Assembly: GCA_003168295.1 (NCBI GenBank)
Contig: PMST01000513.1
Location: forward strand, 1-10,637
Length of the DNA stretch: 10,637 nucleotides
Source: Actinomycetota bacterium
GTDB lineage: Bacteria; Actinomycetota; Actinomycetes; Streptosporangiales; Streptosporangiaceae
Reading direction: 5' to 3'
This document shows, one piece after another, positions 1,655 to 10,008 of the stretch. The notes beneath the pieces are model-generated. The model saw nothing but the letters and a program-made list of their open reading frames with translations. It made no database searches and was not told the origin of the DNA. Positions within the stretch are counted from its first letter, which is position 1; each line of letters opens with the position of its first letter. The position numbers and the translations under genes are program-made.

Positions 1655-1798
1655 GGACACCTCGGCTCGCCGGGTGGTCTCCCTCGGTTTCCGGGCTACC
1701 CGGGTCACTTCCTGCGGCAGACGTGCCTACCGGCTTGGCGACCAGAGGTCACAGCGGTCAGCACGGGCGCGGCGGGCGTACCCCGGCACCTGTGAGGT

Positions 1799-1804
1799 TA
1801 GGCT
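1799..1804 (+). promoter_or_regulatory. possible -10 element of the pirin gene, suggesting a leaderless transcript
   Basis: TAGGCT lies 6 nt before the GTG start of the pirin gene and fits the actinomycete TANNNT -10 pattern. No convincing ribosome binding site is present between it and the GTG. A transcript starting at or near the GTG itself would be leaderless. No clear -35 is seen, so the assignment is weak. Confidence 0.3.
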
Positions 1805-1810
1805 GGGACA

Positions 1811-2794
1811 GTGAGCAACCTGGACCGGTCCCCCACCGAGTTCACGTGCGAACGGCATGAGGATGGTTCAGCCGGGCCTGTCGTGCTGCCCTACCGGAAC
1901 GTGCCGCTCGGCGGTCCGCGGGCGATGACGGTGCGGCGCAGTCTGCCGCAAAGGGCGCAGTCGCTCATCGGGGCATGGTGCTTCGTGGACCACTACGGGC
2001 CCGACGACGTGTCCCTGACCGGCGGGATGGCGGTGCCCGGCCATCCGCACACCGAGCTGCAGACCGCCTCTTGGCTGTTTACCGGCGAGGTCGAGCACCG
2101 CGACACGACCGGCACCCAAGCGCTGGTCCGCCCGGGGCAGCTGAACCTTATGACCGCCGGTTCCGGCATCGCTCACTCGGAGTACTCCACACCGACGACG
2201 ACTGTGCTCCACGGCGCGCAGCTGTGGATCGCGCTGCCCGAAGCGGACCGGTTCGCCGCTCCGGGGTTCGCGCACTATGAGCCGCCGGTCACTGACGTCG
2301 ACGGAGCGAAGGTTCTGGTCTTCCTCGGCAGCCTTTTCGGGCAGACGTCGCCGGTGCCGATGTATTCGGCTCTCGTCGGGGCGGAGGTGACCCTGGCGGC
2401 CGGGCATTCGCTTGACGTCAAGCTCGACGTGGGCCACGAGCACGGATTCCTCTGCGACACCGGCAGCCTGGCCGTGGGCGGCGCCGTGGCTCGGCCGGGT
2501 GAGATCCTGTTCCAGCCTGCCGGTGCCTCGGCGATTACGCTTGAGGCGAGTCCGTCGGAGCCGACGCGGGTCCTCGTCCTGGGGGGTAAGCCGTTCGGTG
2601 AGCAGATCGTCATGTGGTGGAACTTCATCGGCCGCAGCCACGAGGAGGTAGTCGCCTTCCGCAAGGAATGGCAGCGCCAGCGCGCCGACCGGACGCCCGG
2701 CGCTCCGGGGCGTTACGGCGCGTTCCCGGACGTGTGGGAGCACACGCTTCCCGCACCCGAGCTGCCCAACGTCCGCCTGCGTTCCCGCGGCTGA
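1811..2794 (+). CDS. pirin family protein (bicupin)
   Basis: This 327-aa protein starts at GTG 1811. It has the two-cupin pirin layout. The N-terminal metal-binding cupin spans about residues 25-140: VRRSLPQRAQSLIGAWCFVDHYGP, where the last eight residues are the pirin entry motif, then HPHTELQT, then GSGIAHSEY. The four metal ligands of pirins are all present at H78, H80, H122 and E124. A second cupin follows at about 165-260, ending with the family motif (LVLGGKPFGEQIVMWWNFIG, about 255-275). The C-terminus carries a usual R-x-W-Q helix and a proline-rich tail. Pirins bind Fe(II); some have quercetinase activity or act as transcription cofactors, but the substrate here is unknown. The gene stands alone: the next gene begins more than 500 bp away. 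Confidence 0.95.
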   Translation: MSNLDRSPTEFTCERHEDGSAGPVVLPYRNVPLGGPRAMTVRRSLPQRAQSLIGAWCFVDHYGPDDVSLTGGMAVPGHPHTELQTASWLFTGEVEHRDTTGTQALVRPGQLNLMTAGSGIAHSEYSTPTTTVLHGAQLWIALPEADRFAAPGFAHYEPPVTDVDGAKVLVFLGSLFGQTSPVPMYSALVGAEVTLAAGHSLDVKLDVGHEHGFLCDTGSLAVGGAVARPGEILFQPAGASAITLEASPSEPTRVLVLGGKPFGEQIVMWWNFIGRSHEEVVAFRKEWQRQRADRTPGAPGRYGAFPDVWEHTLPAPELPNVRLRSRG

Positions 2795-3003
2795 GGGCGT
2801 CGTAGCAGATAGTTCAGACGGGCTTAGATCTCGGCGGTAGTGGACTCAGAGAGCTGGCCGGCGCCCACCTCGACGAGAATCCTCCGCAGATACGCGGAGG
2901 CATCGAGGGGTCGACGGGCGCAAGTCACCATCAGCCAGGACTGTTGGGAACAACGACTCCACGATCCGGTCCATGGCTTGACCGATGCTACTAGTAAAAC
3001 GGC

Positions 3004-3048
3004 TGGTGGGGCGGGTGGGGCTCGAACCCACGACCGGCGGATTATGAG
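3004..3048 (-). repeat. tRNA 3'-half fragment (CAU anticodon), att-like repeat copy 1
   Basis: Read on the minus strand, this is the 3' part of a tRNA from the anticodon loop to the end. The loop CTCATAA is followed by the 3' side of the anticodon stem (TCCGC) and variable loop CGGTC. The T arm is GTGGG-TTCGAGC-CCCAC, the acceptor strand CCGCCCC, discriminator A, and an encoded CCA at 3004-3006. The 5' half (acceptor GGGGCGG, D arm) is absent from the adjacent sequence, so this is not a functional tRNA. CAU could be elongator Met or the Ile tRNA with lysidine. Positions 3005-3048 are identical to 3938-3981. An identity segment running from the anticodon loop to the tRNA 3' end is the standard att core of actinomycete tyrosine integrases such as that of pSAM2. 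Confidence 0.85.
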
Positions 3049-3210
3049 GAGCCTGATCTGGTGCGACGTATGCGCTAACTGCACCGATAGCACGAACACT
3101 TGCTCTGACGGCACTCGTCGCGCCGAGGTTACCTGGCGACCCGGTCCACGAACCGGTCCATGCATCGAGGCCCTGTGTTCCGTCTCCTGCTACTGAACGT
3201 AACGATGATC
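3049..3210. repeat. conserved blocks beside att copy 1 (candidate integrase arm region)
   Basis: Comparison with 3982-4143 at a fixed offset of 933 bp shows alternating conserved and divergent segments without net insertion or deletion. The conserved blocks are 3079-3094 (CTGCACCGATAGCACG, one mismatch), 3142-3160 (CGGTCCACGAACCGGTCCA, identical) and about 3184-3201 (TCCTGCTACT then CGTAA). The middle block contains the same 7-bp word (CGGTCCA) twice, 12 bp apart. Short conserved words with fixed spacing next to a core are expected for arm-type integrase sites. The binding role is inferred. Confidence 0.5.
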
Positions 3211-3290
3211 TGCGATGCTCACGGCCCGACATAGAGACGGAGGCTGCGAGCTGCATCCGTTAGACGGGCGAATGTACCCTTACTTAACAG

Positions 3291-3298
3291 AGGGAGGA
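3291..3298 (+). promoter_or_regulatory. ribosome binding site that decides the antitoxin start
   Basis: AGGGAGGA is a strong Shine-Dalgarno sequence. It ends 1 nt before the first ATG (3300) but 7 nt before the second in-frame ATG (3306). The second ATG is therefore the likely start. Confidence 0.75.
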
Positions 3299-3305
3299 AA
3301 TGACG

Positions 3306-3593
3306 ATGAGCGAGCTTGCAATCGACGGCACGCCAGAGCCGGACGACGTCGCCGCCGCGGCACGCGATGCGGCCCGTGGCCACGTCGTTTACCTGACGGA
3401 GCACGGCGAGCGCGTTGCCGTTATTGTCCCGGCGGAGCTCGGGCCCCAGCTGGAGCGTTTGTCATCGGAAGAGCTGGCCGGGCTCCTGGAGGACTTCGCT
3501 GACGCAGCCACTGCGCGCGAGGCCCGCGCAAGCATCGAGGCGGGCGAGCCGCTGATCCCATGGGAACAGGTCAAGGCCGAAGCTGGCCTGTGA
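3306..3593 (+). CDS. Phd/YefM- or RelB-like antitoxin
   Basis: This 95-aa protein starts at ATG 3306, chosen from the ribosome binding site spacing. The N-terminal half has the Phd/YefM pattern: a helix-rich start (EPDDVAAAARDAARGHVVYL) followed by TEHGERVAVIVPAELG. This corresponds to the GxxVxLTxHGxxVAxIVP core that binds DNA. The C-terminal half is acidic and helical (LLEDFADAATAREARASIEA) and closes with PLIPWEQVKAEAGL, the common tail that leads into RelE partners. It should neutralise the toxin encoded 3 bp downstream and repress the operon. The pair lies wholly within the 933-bp unit bounded by the two tRNA fragments. Confidence 0.88.
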   Translation: MSELAIDGTPEPDDVAAAARDAARGHVVYLTEHGERVAVIVPAELGPQLERLSSEELAGLLEDFADAATAREARASIEAGEPLIPWEQVKAEAGL

Positions 3594-3596
3594 CCG

Positions 3597-3860
3597 ATGA
3601 CCTACGAGGTCGTATTTCGGGAACACGCCAGCCAGGCATTCCAAAAGCTTGACAAGGCGGTCCAGCGCCGGATCCAGTCAGTCCTTGACCGGCTCGCGGA
3701 CAACCCGCGACCGGGCCAGGCAACCCAGCTCGTTGGTGACCAAGGAACGTGGCGAGTACGAGCGGGAGACTGGCGCATACTCTACGAGATCCACGACGAC
3801 CGTCTGATCGTGCTGGTGCTCGACGTACAGCACCGGAGCACCGCCTACCGCAACCGCTGA
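3597..3860 (+). CDS. RelE/ParE family toxin
   Basis: This 87-aa protein starts at ATG 3597, 3 bp after the antitoxin stop. RelE-family features are clear. The N-terminal strand MTYEVVFREHASQAF is followed by a helix (KLDKAVQRRIQSVLDRLADN). Then come the basic core (GTWRVRAGDWRILYEIHDD), a strand (RLIVLVLDVQHRS) and the closing TAYRNR. The Arg residues in WRVRAGDWRILYEI and the C-terminal HRSTAYR are the usual catalytic and mRNA-binding positions of ribosome-dependent RelE nucleases. Length is normal and nothing is missing. ParE-type gyrase poisons share the fold, but the VxxxGDWRxLY core favours a RelE-like mRNA cleavage role. Confidence 0.92.
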   Translation: MTYEVVFREHASQAFQKLDKAVQRRIQSVLDRLADNPRPGQATQLVGDQGTWRVRAGDWRILYEIHDDRLIVLVLDVQHRSTAYRNR

Positions 3861-3937
3861 CCGCTGTCCTCCGGACACGGATGCAGCCCGTTCGGCATAT
3901 TAATCGGCGCGGTCGCCAGCTCGGCAGAACAGGGATG

Positions 3938-3981
3938 GGTGGGGCGGGTGGGGCTCGAACCCACGACCGGCGGATTATGAG
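3938..3981 (-). repeat. tRNA 3'-half fragment (CAU anticodon), att-like repeat copy 2
   Basis: These 44 bp are identical to 3005-3048 in the same orientation. They cover the anticodon loop, T arm and 3' acceptor strand of the same CAU-anticodon tRNA. Unlike copy 1, the CCA is not encoded next to the discriminator base (the plus strand reads GGG at 3937-3939). No 5' tRNA half is present. The two copies form direct repeats enclosing a 933-bp unit that carries a whole TA operon. Confidence 0.85.
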
Positions 3982-4143
3982 AAGCCCGGCGCGACGCTCC
4001 AGACGCACTACCTGCACGGATAGCACGGAGTCCTGCCCCCGATAGCCCTGATTGCACCGATTGCCCAGATGGCTCGGTCCACGAACCGGTCCACGGTCGC
4101 AGCGCCCGTGCCGCTTATCCTGTTACTTTGCGTAATGTCGCCA
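3982..4143. repeat. conserved blocks beside att copy 2 (candidate integrase arm region)
   Basis: This is the counterpart of 3049-3210 at exactly +933 bp, with blocks at 4012-4027, 4075-4093 and about 4117-4136. On the minus strand there is also a local repeat: GCTATC-N-GGGCAG-type words occur twice about 22 bp apart (about 4014-4050). This again looks like repeated protein-binding sites. I do not see an integrase gene nearby. Confidence 0.48.
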
Positions 4144-4270: not shown

Positions 4271-4471
4271 GTGAGCACATCAAGCGCAGACAGCAATGCA
4301 GGTAAGGCGGCCGCCCGTCCGGGCCTGTCGGTCACGCAGTTGCTTGCCGCGAAGGGTACCCGGCCGATCCGTTCTCTCGATGAGCTTGCCGCGGATACCT
4401 TCGAGTCCGACGAGGAACTAGAGGAGTTCCTGGCCTTCACCTACGCCGAGCGTCACCGCGACTTGGCCTGA
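4271..4471 (+). CDS. antitoxin of the PIN-domain toxin pair
   Basis: This 66-aa protein starts at GTG 4271, about 10 nt after TAGGAG; an in-frame GTG at 4262 is too close to that site. The sequence has a loosely structured start (SADSNAGKAAARPG), then SVTQLLAAKGTRPIRSLDEL. The acidic helical tail (ESDEELEEFLAFTYAERHRD) is suited to wrapping a PIN toxin. I see no clear ribbon-helix-helix or AbrB fold, so the DNA-binding part is not obvious. The role as antitoxin rests on size, acidity and its place 8 bp before a vapC-type gene. It lacks a safe family name. Confidence 0.75.
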   Translation: MSTSSADSNAGKAAARPGLSVTQLLAAKGTRPIRSLDELAADTFESDEELEEFLAFTYAERHRDLA

Positions 4472-4479
4472 TCCCAGCC

Positions 4480-4884
4480 GTGGACCCAGTCGTCCTGGAT
4501 ACCGATGTCGCCTCCTTGCTGCACAAGGGAACACTCGCCGGACCGCTTGCCACTCGCCTGATCGGCCGCGAGCCGCTGATCACCTTCGTGACCTTTGGAG
4601 AGCTGGCCAAGTGGGCGGAGATCCGCAACTGGGGCCAGCACCGCCGCGATGAACTCACCAGCTGGCTGTCCCACATCGCGGTACTGCCCGGTGATGAGGC
4701 AGTAGCCGCCACCTGGGGCCGACTGTCCGCGGCAGCCGTCCAGCGTGGACGACCGCGGCCGGTCAACGACATGTGGGTCGCGGCCTGCTGCCTCACCCAT
4801 GGCATCCCGCTCGCCACCTTGAACCTTAAGGACTACGAGGACTTCGAGCAGTACCACGGCTTGCGCATCCTCGGCCGGGAGTAG
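4480..4884 (+). CDS. vapC: VapC-type PIN domain ribonuclease toxin
   Basis: This 134-aa protein starts at GTG 4480, the first start after the antitoxin stop. The PIN metal-binding acids are all in place: D7 (with D9) in VVLDTDVASL, E41 in TFGELAKWAE, D97 in PVNDMWVAACC, and the late N115/D118 in TLNLKDYEDF. PIN toxins cut specific RNAs, often tRNA, using Mg2+ or Mn2+ held by these residues. Length is typical and no damage is visible, so it should be active when free of its partner. The operon follows directly after att-like copy 2, so two successive att-linked segments each begin with a TA pair. Confidence 0.93.
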   Translation: MDPVVLDTDVASLLHKGTLAGPLATRLIGREPLITFVTFGELAKWAEIRNWGQHRRDELTSWLSHIAVLPGDEAVAATWGRLSAAAVQRGRPRPVNDMWVAACCLTHGIPLATLNLKDYEDFEQYHGLRILGRE

Positions 4885-7908: not shown

Positions 7909-10008
7909 TCAACACGATGGTTCTGTGGCTGCATTCGGAGTGGTGTTATTCGTCACCGAGGCGAGGATGTCGGCTGCGGTGGCGTATCTGGTGCCGGCGG
8001 CTTCAATGACGGGGCCGTGTTGTTCGAGCAGCGGGGTGATGTCCGCGATGACCGTGCCGATGGTCCTGCGGCTGACGCGGAAGAGGTCGGCGAGGACCTC
8101 GCCGGTGCAGAGCTTGCGGTGGTAGAGGATCGTGGCCAGGATCCGGTCGGTGTCGGTGATCTTCTGACGGAAGATGCCGCCGCGGGTTCCGGGTAGGCGG
8201 TCAGCACCGCGCTGCCGGTAGCGGCGGCGTTCGATCGTGGCGGCGTGTGGGATAGCCAGGCGGCTGGCGAGCCGCTGGAATTCGTGGCGGCTCATCCCGG
8301 TCAGCGCCGGGTCGGACAGCTCGCCGTGCGGCGGCTGGGGGATGCGGGCCTGCCCGTGGGCAAGGTAGTCGAGCAGGTCCTGGGCGCGGGTGAAGCGCAA
8401 GCTGGTGGGCGTGATCGTGACCTGGCGCTGTTCCAGGAGCTGCCGGGTGTCCTTGATGGCCTGACCGATGGAGGCCGGGTTGATGCAGAGCAGCTCGGAC
8501 AGGACCTTTTGTGAGCTGACGTGCCGCAGGTAGATGATGGTGATCAGGACACGGTCAGCGTCTGTGAGCAGGGGGCGGCCGTGGTCTCCCCTGGCTTTGC
8601 GGCGCCGGCCGCCGCGATCTTCATAGCGGCGCTGCTCGGCCTGGGCTGCCTGGGCCGGGGCCAGGTCAGCGGCCAACTGGCCAAGCTCTGACCGGTGCAT
8701 CGCGGTCAGCCGGGTATCGGTGAGCATATCCAGGGCCTGTCTTCTTGCCGTGGCCCGGCCGGGAGAGAGGCCAGCGGCAGTGCTCGCGGTCTGCGGGCAG
8801 ATGGTGTAGTTCCAGGAGCCGTGGCTGGCGTGGTGCTGGATCGGCAGGGCGTCCAGGTGCGCCTTGGTCACCGATACCCCGGTGGGATAGGTGCCGGTGT
8901 CCAGTTCTGCTTCCACCCGCAGCCCGCTGCTGGTGCGGGTGGACGCGATGGTCTTAACGACCACGTCGTGGCTGGTCAGCGGCCTTCCCCGCCAGTTCAT
9001 AGTGATGTGGGAGAACAGCCGGTGCTCGATCTTGTTCCACTTGGACGTGCCCGGAGGGAAATGGCAGACGGTGATCACCAGCCCGGCCTCGGCGGCCAGG
9101 ACGGCCAGTTCGGCCTTCCAGACGCGGTAACGGTAGCTGTTGGATCCGCCGGCATCCGCCGTGATCAGCAGCCGCCTGGCCTGCGGGTAGTCTGTTCGGC
9201 CGCGAGCCAGCCACCAGCGGCGGACCGAGGCGACCGCGAAAGCCGCAGTGTCGTGATCGATGCCGACGTTGACCCATCCGGTGTTCGCGGTGATGTCGTA
9301 GATCCCGTAGGGGATGGCCTGCTCGACCTCGGGACCGGTGAAGAAGAAACTGTGGTCCTCGACCTGGACCGGATCGCCTTTCGGCCGCCATTCCCGGCCC
9401 GGGATCGGCAGCCGTCCCAGCTGCTCGCGCTTCTTGGTATCGACGCTGATGACCGGCTCGCCGCCGTTCTGGTGCTCGCGGACCTGCTGACTGATGTAAC
9501 GGAACTGCGCGTCCCGGTCCGGGTGCTGGGCTCCCTCGAGCGTCTTGGCGGTGCCCTACAGGCTGAAACCCGCCTGGCGCAGCAGCCGGCCCACCGTCGG
9601 CGCCGATACCCGGTGTCCCTGCCGGGCCAGCTCCTCAGCGAGATGCCGCAGCGACTTAGTTGTCCACCGCAGCGGCGACTCCGGATCACCCCGCTCGTCC
9701 GGCTCGACCAGGGCCAGCAGCGCCGGGACCAGCCGCCCGTCCCGTTCATCAGCGCTCTTACGACCCCCGCCAGGCCGCCGGACCCGCCCATCCGGTAGCG
9801 GGCCCTGGTCATCCTCGAGCTCGAACACGCCCTTGCGGACCGTGGTCTCGCTGACCCCGGCCAGCCGCGCGACTATCCGCACGCCGCCGTGGCCGAGCAG
9901 CCGCGCCTCCGCGCCGAGCAGCAGCCTGCGCTGACGCTCGTTCAGATGCGGCAGTAATACCTCCAGCCGCAAGCCGAGCTGGTCCAGAACATCACCCGGA
10001 ACGCTCAT
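7909..10008 (-). pseudogene. ISAzo13-family transposase with one in-frame amber codon and an extended C-terminus
   Basis: The reading frame runs 700 codons from ATG 10006-10008 to TGA 7909-7911, with one interruption: TAG at 9556-9558 (codon 151), between AGFSL and GTAKTLEGAQHPDRDAQF. A C-to-T change from CAG would give this. The N-terminus holds an HTH (VRIVARLAGVSETTVRKGV, about 42-62). The DDE acids are D190 (VISVDTKKRE), D285 (LLITADAGGSN) and E328 (SKWNKIEHRLFSHI), each in the expected ISAzo13 context. The usual domain closes near residue 406 (HGSWNYTICPQ). Beyond it lie two homologous ~120-residue repeats (about 429-550 and 564-685), each with an LTDADRVLITIIYLRH/ITDTDRILATILYHRK helix and a following HTH-like segment. 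Without suppression the gene yields a 150-aa fragment; a downstream GTG (9078) leaves E328 but lacks D190 and D285. Confidence 0.9.

Follow-up and report, generated by a model that had tools for sequence, protein, structure and literature searches.

The 933-bp unit enclosed by two tRNA-Met gene fragments in the window (the whole stretch of 10,637 nt that was analysed, likely from a soil actinomycete) is probably, at about 60% in our estimate, a CIME-like remnant without an integrase, derived from islands that are predicted to insert at tRNA genes and often carry a GntR-type integrase, standing in what is likely a tandem array and reduced to a predicted toxin-antitoxin (TA) pair. The flank of its first repeat is matched in a related genome by the distal end of an element that carries an integrase, and comparable arrays occur in other genomes with pieces of integrase in or beside their units.

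The tRNA-bounded unit in the window

The two repeats (cores 1 and 2, Table 1) are identical over 44 bp and lie in direct orientation with their starts 933 bp apart, as the initial annotation had recorded and as was confirmed at the same coordinates. Both represent the 3′ half of an elongator tRNA-Met gene whose sense lies on the minus strand. A search of the window with the last 16 bases of the core, allowing up to three mismatches, returned both cores and no other site; 200 shuffled controls gave a mean of 0.04 sites, and one of the 200 reached two. Neither core copy is an intact tRNA, and ARAGORN found none anywhere in the window. A minus-strand Rfam match to tmRNA (3004-3085) was set aside, since its 15.4 bits, against a gathering threshold of 47, reflect the tRNA-like 3′ end alone.

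The similarity between the two repeats runs beyond the core, at 80% over 99 nt, and resumes in a second block at the same 933-bp offset, which contains CGGTCCACGAACCGGTCCA. Each core therefore heads a shared leader of ~155 bp with paired CGGTCCACG-type sites, and the repeats are longer than 44 bp. Core 2 heads a second unit, which carries a VapBC-like pair at 4271-4884. To the left of core 1 lie paired sites that we assign by eye to the preceding element; G001:C66, C473_5 and G186_b each have a CGGTCCAYG site about as far from their core.

Within unit 1, a simple gene caller returned two genes only, an antitoxin and a toxin, and tblastn with four integrase proteins of two families (E 1e-3) found no match in the unit or in the rest of the window, in agreement with the earlier description of an enclosed antitoxin/RelE pair with no integrase. 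The toxin matches both of its families above their cut-offs (that of TIGR02385 is 27.9 bits). The antitoxin assignment is less firm, the PF02604 match (E 5.7e-4, 20 bits) lying below the cut-off of 29.8 and the RelB-like and Phd-like NCBIfam matches also falling below theirs. The arrangement of a predicted RelE/ParE toxin adjoining its antitoxin is that of a type II TA system (RelBE/ParDE). Unit 1 has a core at each end and a likely distal arm, and no proximal arm could be recognised in its right end. One candidate there, 'GCTCGGCAG', was not counted as an arm, as the same letters form part of the start of an integrase reading frame in G001:C340. The putative VapB-like antitoxin of unit 2 has no family match in Pfam or NCBIfam.

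Further genes of these kinds lie outside the two units. A MazF/PemK toxin (PF02452) with a small upstream ORF is found at 1042-1631, which brings the Pfam-supported toxins in the first 5 kb of the window to three. Positions 1-413 are 91% identical to a part of G001:C66 that follows a core and leader there, and their small genes look toxin-antitoxin-like by eye, without a Pfam match. To the right of the array, one ORF at 7909-9078 contains a transposase domain (PF07592) together with HTH_Tnp_4 (PF13613).

Table 1 Features of the window (positions without a prefix) and of integrase loci in related genomes.
Feature	Position	Strand	Remarks
Paired arm-type sites (ACTCCACG, CGGTCCATG)	2956..2975	+	at right end of the preceding element; judged by eye to be of proximal arm type
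Core 1	3005..3048	+	tRNA-Met 3′ half; tRNA sense on minus strand
Leader 1, likely distal attachment arm	3049..3203	+	CGGTCCACGAACCGGTCCA at 3142-3160; matches G001:C216 distal end, E 1.3e-7
Antitoxin, 97 aa, Phd/RelB-like	3300..3593	+	PF02604, below cut-off
Toxin, 87 aa, RelE/ParE	3597..3860	+	PF05016 1.8e-14; TIGR02385 28 bits
Unit 1 right end, without recognisable CGGTCCACG arm	3861..3937	+	by eye
Core 2	3938..3981	+	identical to core 1
Leader 2, likely distal arm of next element	3982..4136	+	CGGTCCACGAACCGGTCCACG at 4075-4095
Putative VapB-like antitoxin, unit 2, 66 aa	4271..4471	+	47% identity over 49 aa to small gene of G190 unit
VapC-like PIN toxin, unit 2, 134 aa	4480..4884	+	PF01850 5e-9; 57% over 132 aa to G190 PIN protein
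Stretch 92% identical to G001:C473	5190..7173		in C473, follows core with decayed arm; no VapBC
Tyrosine integrases with inserted GntR winged-helix domain	L256:1622-3094, L260:1441-2955, L261:349-1803		adjoin tRNA genes, read away from them

The leader and tRNA-inserting integrase islands

Genome contigs were scanned for the core together with the leader bases that directly follow it. Of the 14 matches, two were taken further: L009, in a metagenome-assembled genome (MAG) titled Nocardiopsis (G001), and L013, in a Streptosporangiaceae MAG (G002). By blastn of the window (E 1e-4), the other 12 are unlike it beyond the pattern itself. The core-leader query found ten sites in G001, six on one 22.7-kb contig, all in one orientation. 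The family of G001 was represented by 341 genomes in a search for the exact core and arm pattern, which occurs in three of them (G001, G002 and G186); a reversed-pattern control occurs in none. Viral contigs gave no match to the exact arm or to the core followed by AGCC, and one to a gapped pattern, the surroundings of which point to chance. In G186, four core copies, all oriented alike, follow an intact tRNA-Met on a 586-kb contig; its intact tRNA stands at the array end that corresponds to the higher coordinates of the window. A pirin stretch of the window (1756-2882) matches G001 in two pieces, at 91% and 83%, and lacks core and unit there. We rejected it as a clean empty site, because transposase-like sequence (by eye) follows it in G001 and the arrangement is thus no proof of one.

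Alignment of 20 core-bearing sites showed that most share the post-core blocks AAGC..CGGCC, CTGCACGGATACCACG and the paired CGGTCCACG. The same kind of sequence closes a complete element in G001:C216, which consists of a tRNA-Thr gene, paired arms, a GntR-type integrase, cargo, a leader-like distal arm and, 9.7 kb on, a copy of the tRNA-Thr core. Leader 1 matches this distal end with 40 bits. The initial proposal that the repeats are att cores of tyrosine integrases is supported, in that they look like attachment cores of such a family. Leader 2 matches two integrase-bearing distal ends weakly, the best score being 28.3 bits against a maximum of 24.7 bits for 60 approximate dinucleotide shuffles of leader 2. 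Judged by sequence comparison, the leader is thus likely to be the distal attachment arm of a GntR-type tyrosine-integrase family. We had also considered that it might derive from the 3′ coding end of an integrase gene, a reading that was dropped because the frames break and differ between copies. The distal-arm layout of the GntR-type islands, paired NGTNCCACG sites followed by a tRNA core, is present in the window, in which no GntR-bearing integrase gene was found beside a tRNA. A similar arm layout is carried by tRNA-Thr and tRNA-Lys genes (L143 and G001:C216), where toxin-only units may therefore exist as well.

The integrase itself was traced from G186, where a 128-aa integrase N terminus lies just past the intact tRNA-Met. 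This N terminus is matched in 13 of 338 genomes, a count that includes G186 (E 1e-6), and its longer relatives are tyrosine integrases (PF00589). Full-length genes were found in four cases (G056, G082, G001:C216 and G108). Five proteins were tested for a GntR domain (PF00392), which is inserted before the catalytic part in three of them (G056, G082 and G001:C216) and was not found in the G108 integrase or in a fragment from G033; with one integrase lacking the domain and one fragment lacking a family match, the family is not uniform. An intact tRNA gene (Met, Thr or Lys) lies just upstream, in the same direction, in seven of the eight integrase loci examined, and the seven gaps between tRNA and integrase contain paired NGTNCCACG-type sites, some with a changed base, as read by eye. 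At three further tRNA-Met genes with integrase starts, one site is present in G186, a degenerate site in G002 and none in G001:C340. A downstream copy of the tRNA 3′ half was seen in 4 of the 10 such integrase stretches examined (11 were fetched; L278 was left out).

An intact integrase adjoining tRNA-Met is found in G056, and the arms in the gap between them are of a variant that also occurs in the toxin-bearing cassettes of that genome. This protein is a PF00589 integrase with PF00392 inserted. Of 7,995 candidates scored, at least 1,910 are related to it at E 1e-20 or better; the 120 relatives among the matches listed all carry both domains. No single region of any phage or plasmid record spans 80% of the protein, and a literature search by title found no paper on a GntR-integrase fusion. 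In one tRNA-Met island with an intact GntR-type integrase (G056:C229, at L280:10669-13485), a DndB gene called by PADLOC lies between a class-V aminotransferase and an ORF that is DndC-like by eye.

Small units in other genomes

We surveyed 104 loci with an intact tRNA-Met, which were picked from the best core matches and are thus not a random sample. Downstream tRNA matches were present at 14. Of these, 12 were kept, all but one from the 91 loci that have 3 kb or more downstream; the two dropped as weak were L085 (73.7%, tRNA positions 7-63) and L197 (83%, positions 50-78). Nine units of up to 2.5 kb are bounded by two cores or by a core and a tRNA, namely that of the window, two each in G186 and G001:C473, and one each in G160, G190, G181 and G056. 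A Pfam-supported toxin is present in five (window, G186, G190, G181 and G056, the last with another gene too), the G160 unit is TA-like but lacks Pfam support for a toxin (DUF6247 and a 72-aa ORF), and the remaining three hold other genes. Counted by leader, the first genes form a Pfam-supported toxin operon in 6 of 17, with C473_4, G002C77 and G078C117 left out of the 20 aligned. In support of the initial annotation, similar small toxin units occur in other genomes; not all array units carry toxins.

A comparable case is the second unit of G186, in which 1,021 bp hold an antitoxin-like gene (no Pfam match) and a ParE toxin, with nothing else called. Its toxin is 31% identical to that of the window. 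With its counterpart in the G001:C11 pair, the antitoxin-like gene shares 68% identity; the two pairs agree at 71.5% over 471 bp of genes and in the start of the leader, and their right ends are unlike, the C11 contig ending before the next core. The contents of neighbouring units in G186 are a WS/DGAT gene together with a hydrolase, a short-chain dehydrogenase, and a bigger gene set that includes pieces of integrase, and the non-toxin cargo of array units as a whole includes WS/DGAT, FAD-binding, short-chain dehydrogenase and MraY-like genes. In one case a lone MraY-like gene (PF00953, PF10555; L035:7210-8247) fills a 1.5-kb att-bounded unit of G001:C473. In G186, the 3′ end of a membrane-protein-like gene (L074:11760-13064) runs into a tRNA core copy, so its C terminus is tRNA-derived.

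Association with these units varies among toxin families. The single PF05016 (ParE) match of G001 lies beside such an arm (the C11 unit), and one of the three in G186 lies in the array there. HepT (PF01934) occurs in or beside units in one of two cases in G056, one of one in G181 and one of four in G025, with none in G001, G186, G190 or G160. PIN domains (PF01850) are not enriched, at 1 of 13 in G001 and 0 of 18 in G186; enrichment is thus not true of every toxin type.

By eye the arms fall into two families, the CGGTCCACG type in the window, G001, G002 and G186, with a variant in G056, and a GCAGGTCAG type in G160, G190 and G181. Pieces of integrase are kept in several units: the 1.46-kb VapBC unit of G190 contains integrase debris, the MNT/HEPN unit of G181 retains a 239-aa integrase piece, the G160 unit matches the GntR part of the integrase and so holds a GntR remnant, and N-terminal debris adjoins a core in G001:C66 and is contained in a unit of G001:C473. 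No such debris was found in unit 1 or in the G186 toxin unit, and the latter, too, has no recognisable proximal arm. Debris in or beside units, together with the lack of recognisable proximal arms, leads us to prefer deletion remnants in a tandem accretion over mini-elements. Of the two origins offered by the initial annotation, a minimal integrating element or a deletion remnant, the second is the one favoured; the first agrees with the lack of an integrase, and the debris and the unrecognisable proximal arm speak against a clean minimal element.

Origin of the unit and comparison with known systems

Since the leader is likely the distal arm of integrase islands, the window likely holds a tandem array of elements without integrases, and a course of events can be suggested for it. 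Insertions at tRNA-Met would have followed one another, with a copy of the core left by each, and later deletions would have removed integrase and cargo. The predicted TA pair probably survived because its loss would be toxic, and its toxin would then hold the unit in place. Any movement would then need an integrase supplied in trans, or a neighbouring element that carries the unit along. This reading draws on the core and arm common to the window, G001, G002 and G186, on the G186 cores that run in tandem from an intact tRNA-Met with two of them enclosing a ParE unit, on the arm with which the G001:C216 element ends, on the intact G056 integrase with its shared arm variant, on the integrase debris of G190, G181, G001:C66 and G001:C473, and on the placing of ParE matches in such units. 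Against it stand the weak match of leader 2, the PIN counts, the non-uniform integrase family and the short contigs of G001, G002 and several other relatives; in addition, no full-length ancestor of unit 1 was found among the relatives examined, and unit 1 and the G186 toxin unit are free of debris, as a freely built mini-element would also be.

The main rival, which we consider unlikely, is that the unit is an actively moving, non-autonomous TA mini-element, excised and inserted in trans by an integrase of GntR type, or by one from a phage that has the same core specificity, much as integron cassettes are moved by IntI. Small toxin units do recur with two different arm families, and homologous VapBC pairs occur with one family in the window and with the other in G190 (57% identity for the PIN proteins, 47% for the small genes). 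Arm-like sites stand at either end of the unit in both G190 and G160, and the mycobacteriophage RitSun carries a 47-bp core, 97.8% identical, ~140 bp before its integrase gene. However, the proximal arm is not recognisable in either unit 1 or the G186 toxin unit, the integrase start on the tRNA-Met side is a fragment in G186 and looks broken, as read, in G001 and G002, and the G001:C11 and G186 pairs differ at the right end, with the next core of C11 not reached. A bolder form of the idea, that tRNA-Met acts in these soil actinomycetes as a second kind of integron, in which a GntR-sensing tyrosine integrase at a tRNA 'attI' collects small att-bounded cassettes in trans and TA-only cassettes are addictive parasites, is more doubtful still. 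We found no paper on a TA pair with an integrase acting in trans at a tRNA.

That the repeats arose by tandem duplication of one element which later diverged, instead of by two separate insertions, would account for the identical cores and for leaders that align at the same 933-bp offset; it is very unlikely, given that the enclosed operons differ (RelE/ParE and PIN) and that G001:C473 and G186 show consecutive cores with differing leaders and cargo. An assembly or binning artefact, in which repeats of different genomes were joined at the shared tRNA core, might be suspected where several relatives are in short contigs, but appears extremely improbable in view of the similar array on the long G186 contig and the 2 kb right of unit 2 that are collinear with G001.

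Work on superintegrons and plasmids has asked whether TA pairs act to retain mobile DNA that is decaying, or travel as mini-elements in their own right. The arrays described here are natural cases in which a TA pair is all the recognised cargo left between two attachment sites. They come from more than one genome and from both arm families, and make deletion versus addiction directly testable. They also adjoin an integrase clade, of at least 1,910 members, in which a sensor-type domain is inserted. A literature search by title found no published case of a toxin-only tRNA-bounded unit among the matches listed.

Arrays of small units that include TA pairs are familiar from superintegrons, whose TA cassettes are described as stabilising the array (PMC11551772). 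In contrast to those of the superintegron, the sites in these arrays are 3′ halves of tRNA genes, with paired arms, and the tRNA-Met-adjacent integrase of G056 is a GntR-type tyrosine integrase. The head of the array, where IntI would stand in an integron, lies outside the window. Actinobacterial AICEs share the use of tyrosine integrases at tRNA 3′ ends and are reported to form occasional tandem arrays with tRNA remnants serving as sites (PMC3218068); the word toxin is absent from the main text of that account, and the present family differs from the AICEs described there in that its integrase starts beside the tRNA and reads away from it, and in that no rep or tra gene came to notice among the genes called in its units. 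In Dehalococcoides, tandem ssrA islands are likewise bounded by RNA-gene repeats, 15 of them without an integration module (PMC3146451), although their cargo is rdhA and their integration module and target are different.

Perhaps the closest known kind is that of the CIMEs (cis-mobilizable elements), which decay from ICEs or IMEs by losing recombination and transfer genes and keeping their att sites, and which in Streptococcus salivarius comprise classical forms of 1.2-13 kb and gene-less microCIMEs of 130-220 bp, with tandem accretion (PMC7563491). Like these, unit 1 probably stands in tandem beside a target gene and contains neither recombination nor transfer genes, the two genes called in it being the TA pair and no integrase match being found. 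It has a likely att core at each end and a likely distal arm, and its proximal arm is not recognisable. It differs from the CIMEs of that account in that the pair is its sole cargo within 933 bp, that its target is tRNA-Met, and that its likely parents carry a GntR-type integrase and are known here as integrase-bearing islands, not as ICEs or IMEs. Unit 1 thus fits the CIME kind as a variant of it.
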